DNA from: Psychromonas sp. SP041
GTDB lineage: Bacteria > Pseudomonadota > Gammaproteobacteria > Enterobacterales > Psychromonadaceae
Length of the DNA: 64,000 bases
Assembly: GCF_000470315.2 (NCBI RefSeq)
Contig: NZ_CBRF02000015.1
Coordinates: 1 to 64,000 of the forward strand
Reading direction: 5' to 3'
The notes below the pieces were generated by a model, which had not been told where the DNA came from, did not search any database, and saw nothing but the letters and a program-made list of their open reading frames with translations. Position numbers and translations under genes: made by a program. Of the stretch, positions 57,244-58,547 are shown in pieces (the first letter of the stretch is position 1; each line of letters starts with the position of its first letter).

Positions 57244-57272
57244 TTGACTCAGTACCTGCAACTCCGTATTAT
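57244..57272 (+). promoter_or_regulatory. promoter of the tRNA-Asp array
   Basis: TTGACT and TATTAT are separated by 17 bases, close to the sigma-70 consensus. A GC-rich discriminator (CTGCGCCT) follows, as in stringently controlled stable-RNA promoters. A perfect 11-base inverted repeat (57257-57267 and 57283-57293, TGCAACTCCGT and complement) surrounds the -10 box and predicted start. Confidence 0.85.
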
Positions 57273-57316
57273 CTGCGCCTCAACGGAGTTGCATATTATG
57301 TAACGTTGATTTTGCT

Positions 57317-57393
57317 GGAGTGGTAGTTCAGTTGGTTAGAATACCGGCCTGTCACGCCGGGGGTCGCGGGTTCGAGTCCCGTCCACTCCGCCA
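57317..57393 (+). tRNA. tRNA-Asp (GTC), copy 1
   Basis: 77 bases including encoded CCA. Acceptor stem GGAGTGG / CCACTCC, anticodon loop CTGTCAC with anticodon GTC, T-loop GTTCGAG. Identical to the four copies that follow. Its leader GATTTTGCT has an exact complement at 57530-57538, beyond the tandem array that follows the gene. Confidence 0.97.
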
Positions 57394-57400
57394 ACAATTT

Positions 57401-57512
57401 TTTTATAAATTTAGTTTTATAAATTTAGTTTTATAAATTTAGTTTTATAAATTTAGTTTTATAAATTTAGTTTTATAAATTTAGTTTTATAAATTTAGTT
57501 TTATAAATTTAG
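57401..57512. repeat. 14-bp tandem array, eight perfect copies
   Basis: The unit TTTTATAAATTTAG is repeated eight times without a mismatch. It lies in the transcribed spacer between tRNA-Asp copies 1 and 2. Confidence 0.97.
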
Positions 57513-57564
57513 AGTTGGCAATACTATCTAGCAAAATCTAAAGTTGAACTGATGATTATCACGT

Positions 57565-57641
57565 GGAGTGGTAGTTCAGTTGGTTAGAATACCGGCCTGT
57601 CACGCCGGGGGTCGCGGGTTCGAGTCCCGTCCACTCCGCCA
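57565..57641 (+). tRNA. tRNA-Asp (GTC), copy 2
   Basis: 77 bases with encoded CCA, identical to copy 1. A short hairpin (CATTTGC / GCAAATG, 57645-57660) follows directly. Leader-trailer pairing is weak in this copy. Confidence 0.97.
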
Positions 57642-57700
57642 ACTCATTTGCTTGCAAATGTAATAGATAATTATCAAAGCTTGAACTGTAATACTCCAGT

Positions 57701-57777
57701 GGAGTGGTAGTTCAGTTGGTTAGAATACCGGCCTGTCACGCCGGGGGTCGCGGGTTCGAGTCCCGTCCACTCCGCCA
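57701..57777 (+). tRNA. tRNA-Asp (GTC), copy 3
   Basis: 77 bases with encoded CCA, identical to copy 1. Leader TAATACT, five bases before the gene, is complementary to AGTATTA two bases after the CCA; AGCTT/AAGCT can extend the pairing. Confidence 0.97.
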
Positions 57778-57851
57778 ACAGTATTATATGAAAGCTAAAT
57801 GGTTTATTTCACCAGTATTAATTTACAAAGAAATAACTGTAACACACTCGT

Positions 57852-57928
57852 GGAGTGGTAGTTCAGTTGGTTAGAATACCGGCCTGTCACGCCGGGGGTC
57901 GCGGGTTCGAGTCCCGTCCACTCCGCCA
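57852..57928 (+). tRNA. tRNA-Asp (GTC), copy 4
   Basis: 77 bases with encoded CCA, identical to copy 1. Leader TAACACACT and trailer AGTGTGTTA are complementary over 9 bases, with ATAAC/GTTAT further out. Confidence 0.97.
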
Positions 57929-57992
57929 ACAGTGTGTTAAATCGTTATCACTGCGATATAAAATAAAGTGGTAAAACTGTTATACACTCGGA

Positions 57993-58069
57993 GGAGTGGT
58001 AGTTCAGTTGGTTAGAATACCGGCCTGTCACGCCGGGGGTCGCGGGTTCGAGTCCCGTCCACTCCGCCA
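57993..58069 (+). tRNA. tRNA-Asp (GTC), copy 5
   Basis: 77 bases with encoded CCA, identical to copy 1. Leader TTATACACT and trailer AGTGTATAA are complementary over 9 bases, then one mismatch and AACT/AGTT. No clear intrinsic terminator follows. Confidence 0.97.
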
Positions 58070-58163
58070 ACAGTGTATAAAAGTTATTATTATCTTATCT
58101 AAATTCTTTAGTTCAATACTTCAATATTAAATTAGTACAAAAATACTCATCTAATTCTTATAC

Positions 58164-58254
58164 CTCTATATTCTCTATATTCTCTATATTCTCTATATTC
58201 TCTATATTCTCTATATTCTCTATATTCTCTATATTCTCTATATTCTCTATATTT
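58164..58254. repeat. 9-bp tandem array (TATTCTCTA)
   Basis: Nine perfect units of TATTCTCTA (58169-58249) with partial units at both ends. Non-coding, just downstream of the tRNA array. Confidence 0.95.
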
Positions 58255-58528: not shown

Positions 58529-58547
58529 AAAAAGCGCCGAAGCGCTT
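58529..58547 (-). terminator. rho-independent terminator of pilU
   Basis: Minus strand: AAGCGC-TTCG-GCGCTT followed by a T-rich run (TTTATTAT). The UUCG tetraloop and G/C stem are very stable. The same stem-loop type follows the symporter gene at 62309. Confidence 0.85.

Follow-up and report, generated by a model that had tools for sequence, protein, structure and literature searches.

The window, a stretch of 64,000 nucleotides of Psychromonas sp. SP041, a bacterium of cold seas, contains five tRNA-Asp(GTC) genes, all on the + strand: copy 1 (57317-57393), copy 2 (57565-57641), copy 3 (57701-57777), copy 4 (57852-57928) and copy 5 (57993-58069). The bodies of these tRNAs had been called identical in a preliminary description, and this was confirmed for all five genes. 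Upstream of the array lie rnhA, dnaQ and a membrane protein gene. The closest named relatives of this dnaQ are all from Psychromonas, and in one relative (L201) no tRNA was found near dnaQ. A candidate promoter, TTGACT and TATTAT with a spacing of 17 nt (57244-57272, + strand, 10 of 12 matches), is followed by the GC-rich segment CTGCGCC. No convincing promoter was found between the tRNA-Asp copies, and the TTGACT-17-TATTAT element is probably the sole promoter of the array; because shuffled sequence yields as many promoter-like sites, this assignment is based on its position and on the GC-rich segment. There is no intrinsic terminator directly behind copy 5, the nearest being located at 58532-58547. 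Shortly 3' of the array, CTCTATATT is repeated ten times in perfect copies (58164-58253).

Truncated or diverged tRNA-Asp remnants were observed within arrays (G017:C3:127251-127310, G003:C3:83933-83992, G018:C326:25124-25146 and G005:C1:629650-629672), and such remnants in several Psychromonas genomes are signs of copy loss and gain. Copy numbers in draft assemblies are lower bounds, because many contigs end inside tRNA arrays (L041, L042, L045, L048, L050, L054, L059, L060 and L096-L098), and arms in draft arrays may have been misjoined by assemblers (e.g., L041 and L044).

From the sequence, each of the five tRNA-Asp copies of the window is predicted to be enclosed by a helix between its own leader and its own trailer, which we call P1. 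The length of P1 is 7-11 bp, typically 9 bp. The leader arm of copy 3, TGTAATACT (57687-57695, with TAATACT at 57689-57695), is complementary to the trailer arm AGTATTATA (57780-57788, with AGTATTA at 57780-57786); that of copy 4, TAACACACT (57840-57848), to AGTGTGTTA (57931-57939); and that of copy 5, TTATACACT (57980-57988), to AGTGTATAA (58072-58080). The leader arms end 5, 3 and 4 nt before copies 3, 4 and 5, respectively, and the trailer arms begin 2 nt behind them. In the predicted fold, the P1 of copy 5 is extended with bulges to near 20 bp. The sequences of these three arm pairs and their distances to the tRNAs agreed with the preliminary description, which had understated the extent of the helix in reporting it for three copies, since copies 1 and 2 are also paired. 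They had been overlooked because their trailer arms sit past a trailer hairpin or a repeat. In copy 2, the leader arm TGATGATTATC (57550-57560) pairs with the trailer arm GATAATTATCA (57666-57676) over 11 bp including one G-U, and the hairpin CATTTG-CTTG-CAAATG (57645-57660) lies between the tRNA and the trailer arm. In copy 1, the leader arm GATTTTGCT (57308-57316) is flush with the tRNA and pairs with the trailer arm AGCAAAATC (57530-57538), with strong covariation in relatives.

The trailer of copy 1 contains a hairpin that captures the CCA end. Its 5' side is GCCAAC (57390-57395), which consists of the discriminator, the CCA end and 2 further nt, and its 3' side is GTTGGC (57514-57519). 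In the loop of this hairpin, within the spacer between copies 1 and 2, lie eight perfect units of the 14-nt tandem repeat TTTTATAAATTTAG (57401-57512). One or two such units are present in L051, L054 and L057 and none in L039, while the repeat is expanded in the window genome; because it forms a long hairpin within the loop, P1 seems to tolerate a large insertion. The CCA-capturing hairpin was found at copy 1 in 13 of 18 Psychromonas arrays, compared with 7 of 40 middle copies, and in most Psychromonas species the P1 of copy 1 is flush with the tRNA. At positions -1/-2, the clade of the window has GT in the middle copies and GA in the last, and other species have GC at the last copy; a gradient of -1/-2 pairing, strongest at the first copy and weakest at the last, is present partly in the window clade and not in the species that have GC at the last copy. 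Just 5' of the copy 1 trailer arm, positions 57520-57529 can pair with 57317-57325, the 5' acceptor strand of copy 1. Calculated at 25 °C without tertiary terms, such an alternative "anti-acceptor" fold is predicted to exceed the cloverleaf in stability by about 2-6 kcal/mol for most Psychromonas copy 1 units; with a gain of at most about 6 kcal/mol, we did not rely on it.

Cognate pairing, geometry and predicted folds

We applied dinucleotide shuffles to both 30-nt flanks of a copy (20,000 trials per copy) and counted a success when a Watson-Crick helix of equal length began no more than 6 nt from both tRNA ends. The observed helix was reached in 124 of 20,000 shuffles for copy 3 (7 bp), 18 of 20,000 for copy 4 (9 bp) and 21 of 20,000 for copy 5 (9 bp). 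At about 1 in 1000 for the 9-bp helices, the possibility raised beforehand, that 9-base complementarity is expected by chance in such AT-rich spacers, was not borne out.

Among the 120 possible assignments of leaders to trailers in the five copies of the window, the assignment of each leader to its own trailer had the best energy (p = 0.0083, the minimum possible). The cognate assignment was likewise at or next to the minimum p in other Psychromonas arrays (L039, L040, L043, L046, L051, L053, L056 and L057), in Val arrays (L063, L079-L082, L084, L085 and L087) and in Asp arrays from other families of the order (L102, L103 and L106-L109). The p-values of two more Asp arrays (L099 and L110) were also below 0.01, and p was 0.017 for an Asn array (L174) and 0.003 for a Glu array (L143), both in other genomes. 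These p-values should not be multiplied blindly because arrays are related within clades; it is the different families and isoacceptors that provide independent evidence for P1.

The geometry of the helices was analyzed in Asp and Val arrays and in single Asn, Glu and Lys arrays. Strong cognate helices began no more than 6 nt from both tRNA ends in 53% of cases, compared with 12% of non-cognate ones. Most often the leader arm is 1 nt away from the gene and the trailer arm 0 nt (Val); next come distances of 3-5 nt before and 0-2 nt after. In these common geometries, the loop that separates P1 and the acceptor stem contains the CCA end. Pairing of a trailer with the leader of the next copy across the spacer was not above background: in the window it reached -6.4 kcal/mol, compared with -6.8 kcal/mol with other leaders. 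The alternative folds that had been suggested to arise from arms pairing across spacers were therefore not supported, and spacer stem-loops between adjacent copies were rejected as a general feature. The G-U to A-C counts in the arms were 18:8 versus 237:182, which is the right direction for an RNA helix but weak and not decisive.

Local folds of leader, tRNA and trailer were rejected as a test, because shuffled flanks paired about as often; since they do not discriminate, we chose whole-array folds and the permutation tests. The unconstrained minimum free energy fold of an 830-nt precursor of the window contained all five P1 helices at both 37 and 15 °C. When whole arrays were folded and a tRNA was regarded as closed by at least 5 leader-trailer pairs, all copies were closed in L039 (5/5), L040 (5/5), L043 (4/4), L081 (5/5), L087 (6/6), L085 (4/4), L110 (6/6), L102 (5/5) and L106 (4/4), five of six in L099 and in L109, and nearly all in L052, whereas in the controls with shuffled spacers the mean fraction of closed copies was 0.05-0.25. 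The window scored 4/5 in this test only because the trailer arm of copy 1 is more than 120 nt away; it is paired in the 830-nt fold. Four arrays (L056, L058, L063 and L103) have complementary arms, yet their minimum free energy folds were not fully closed in the whole-array test. L100, L104 and, in the window genome, the Asn and Gly arrays had no closed copy, and one of four was closed in L105.

Covariation among relatives and distribution of P1

Ten distinct arm pairs of copy 1 from Psychromonas were used for covariation analysis. The results showed that 88.9% of the cells were paired, compared with 26-49% in controls in which the partner arm was slid; 22 cells had changed on both sides, in 6 of the 9 pairs, compared with 0-5 in the slid controls; and the covariation score was 0.649, compared with at most 0.094. 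Because the trailer arms of copy 1 were located by complementarity, and because the clade of L043, L053 and L056, which has no alignable copy 1 arm, was excluded, the evidence from copy 1 lies in the two-sided changes and not in the paired percentage. Copies 3-5 were aligned by position without the use of pairing, and gave a covariation score of 0.205 against 0.116 after shuffling, with 14 two-sided cells against 7.0; these fixed-frame scores are lowered because some species have register-shifted or replaced helices. In the clade of L040, L043, L053 and L056, the arms of copies 2 and 3 are wholly different yet complementary, for example TATTTATATAC/GTATATAAATA and TACAGTAC/GTACTGTG. In the genus, the arms of copies 1 and 2 still pair across hairpins whose length varies. 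When trailers were swapped between orthologs, copy 1 favoured its own trailer, copies 3 and 5 did so slightly and copy 2 hardly at all. Copy 4 showed no such preference; its arms are almost constant in the genus and therefore uninformative on compensatory change.

Compensatory change in a selected RNA helix had been proposed for these arms, and it is supported both between copies, by the cognate permutation, and between species, by covariation. Pairing is kept across Psychromonas while the letters change, so the expectation under which the proposal would have failed, a loss of pairing in relatives, did not come true. These sequence comparisons indicate that P1 is a real and selected helix, maintained by compensatory change.

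As judged from the sequences, Val arrays of Psychromonas share this architecture, as do Asp, Asn and Glu arrays from other families of the order. In the window genome, P1 is clear for Asp and Val, and the other tRNAs are near background (5% at p ≤ 0.05); in other genomes of the order, different sets of tRNAs carry it. Arrays without P1 include Asp arrays (L100, L104 and L111), Gly, fMet and Arg arrays, the Asn array of the window genome and the Val arrays of G032, G034 and G062; as several arrays lack it, P1 cannot be a general requirement of tandem tRNAs. The Val arrays L090-L092 of the genus have nearly identical arms in every copy, and their pairing persists without copy specificity. The specificity of the arms therefore seems to be a side effect of compensated drift rather than a purpose, and the idea that distinct arms insulate neighbouring copies does not hold as a general rule.

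Comparable arms are present in E. coli K-12 at valX, valY, leuP and argY, most of them not individually significant. In the valU-valX-valY-lysV cluster (L119:1390-1880), the arms are CCGAAG/CTTCGG for valY and GAGAAG/CTTTCTC for valX. At valU, a trailer hairpin ACTAC/GTAGT is present with CACAGCG/CGCCGTG outside it, an arrangement resembling that of copy 1 in the window.

Proposed role of P1 and rival explanations

We propose, with a probability of roughly one in two, that P1 is a closing stalk, one per tRNA, with the RNase P site and the CCA end in a loop between it and the acceptor stem. Its function is most likely the shielding of each tRNA and the timing of its cutting from the shared precursor, and roles in the order of processing and in protection are plausible. 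P1 would form once the trailer has been transcribed and before the next copy exists, so that each tRNA would fold as its own domain. To enter tRNA precursors directly, RNase E requires single-stranded RNA on both the 5' and the 3' side of the folded tRNA (PMC3985628), and P1 may hide precisely these two antiparallel single strands beside the tRNA, as well as block 3' exonucleases. With access of RNase E and exonucleases shut, the copies would be separated either at the RNase P sites or in the central part of the spacers, which stays open. The cut by RNase P would then free P1 from its 5' arm and open the trailer to trimming, and 3' maturation would thus wait for 5' maturation.

Bacterial RNase P is slowed when the leader pairs with the RCCA and when stem-loops flank the tRNA, and in the valU and valVW transcripts of E. 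coli this leaves the first valine tRNA to be processed last (PMC9433436 and PMC10731613). Copy 1 of the window, with a flush P1 and a trailer hairpin that captures its CCA end, is predicted to be processed last as well, which would favour release from the 3' end. P1 could also simply slow RNase P, because it covers part of the leader that is presumed to be in contact with the RNase P protein. A more tentative reading, less likely than not, is that the stalk is a widespread bacterial architecture in which one covarying helix per tRNA gates nucleases and makes 3' maturation depend on RNase P; the first copy would be locked and release would proceed 3' to 5'.

The main rival to a shielding stalk, which we regard as rather unlikely, is that P1 serves as a folding aid only, setting the register and preventing the 5' acceptor strand of one identical copy from mispairing with the 3' strand of its downstream neighbour, with nuclease access being irrelevant. 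Such a role agrees with P1 being clearest in arrays of identical tRNAs and with cognate pairing exceeding non-cognate pairing in most arrays having P1, and for 16S rRNA the leader-trailer helix has a role in assembly that does not depend on RNase III (PMC10250234). However, register is not encoded in the Val arrays L090-L092, where the arms are the same in every copy, and P1 is missing from several arrays of identical tRNAs.

Less probable still is that P1 is a scaled-down version of the rRNA leader-trailer stalks and, like them, a processing stalk that RNase III cleaves. The topology is the same as that of the pre-16S and pre-23S stalks (PMC10250234), some P1 helices lengthen with bulges to near 20 bp, as at copy 5 of the window, and RNase III participates in the processing of a tRNA/rRNA operon in S. 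aureus (PMC3386247), but the typical P1 of 7-11 bp is at or under one helical turn while the 16S stalk needs more than 17 bp, and the shortness of the helices makes cleavage by RNase III less likely.

A role of the complementarity in the DNA, as inverted repeats from mobile elements or recombination, is highly improbable: the arms do form inverted repeats around the gene, and the G-U versus A-C comparison does not decide the matter, but the arms vary by copy and by species yet stay complementary and close to the tRNA ends, copy 2 contains a G-U pair, and the arms of copies 1 and 2 keep pairing across hairpins that vary in length. That the AT-rich spacers are complementary by chance can practically be set aside, since frequent weak helices in such flanks, the similar pairing of shuffled isolated leader and trailer folds and the modest p-values of many single-copy shuffles are outweighed by the cognate permutation, the whole-array folds, the geometry at the tRNA ends and the flank shuffles, and contradicted by the conservation and covariation in relatives.

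Known systems and significance

P1 bears on how RNase P, RNase E and exonucleases share tandem tRNA transcripts and on how the order of processing arises, and it implies that the spacers of tRNA arrays are functional RNA and not filler. Covarying stalks with defined compensatory pairs offer ready designs for mutants and their rescue, and P1 can be tested in a laboratory strain because valU-valX-valY and leuP of E. coli appear to carry related helices. In open-access full texts, we came across no account of bacterial tRNA arrays with covarying leader-trailer helices, and an earlier mention of leader-trailer pairing for E. coli valine tRNAs is possible.

The tandem identical tRNAs of E. coli valVW and valU are a close likeness: there, RNase P acts slowly on the first copy because of flanking structure and CCA pairing, which gives a 3' to 5' order (PMC10731613 and PMC9433436). 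In the same way, the first copy has extra structure, the CCA-capturing hairpin, in 13 of the 18 Psychromonas arrays. The difference is that the accessible parts of these two reports describe stem-loops flanking the first tRNA and -1/-2 pairing with the RCCA, and no covarying leader-trailer helix for each copy.

Like P1, the helices of pre-16S and pre-23S rRNA form between complementary flanks, enclose a stable RNA as a domain of a polycistronic transcript and are supported by covariation (PMC10250234). The rRNA helices need more than 17 bp, with 25-40 bp modelled for 16S, and are cut by RNase III (PMC10250234), whereas P1 has 7-11 bp, occurs once per tRNA and leaves an internal loop at the RNase P site; compared with an rRNA-type stalk, P1 showed the enclosing complementarity and the covariation but not a helix of more than 17 bp. 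In eukaryotic pre-tRNAs, a bulge or loop at the mature ends is followed by a paired leader and trailer, and this pairing influences RNase P (PMC9705548). The same succession, a loop at the mature ends and then leader-trailer pairing, was found for P1, although eukaryotic pre-tRNAs are mostly transcribed singly, have no encoded CCA and are bound by La, whereas the arrays with P1 are bacterial and tandem and encode the CCA. What appears to be new, judged from the open-access texts, is P1 in bacterial tRNA arrays; leader-trailer helices as such were already known from rRNA (PMC10250234) and from eukaryotic pre-tRNAs (PMC9705548).
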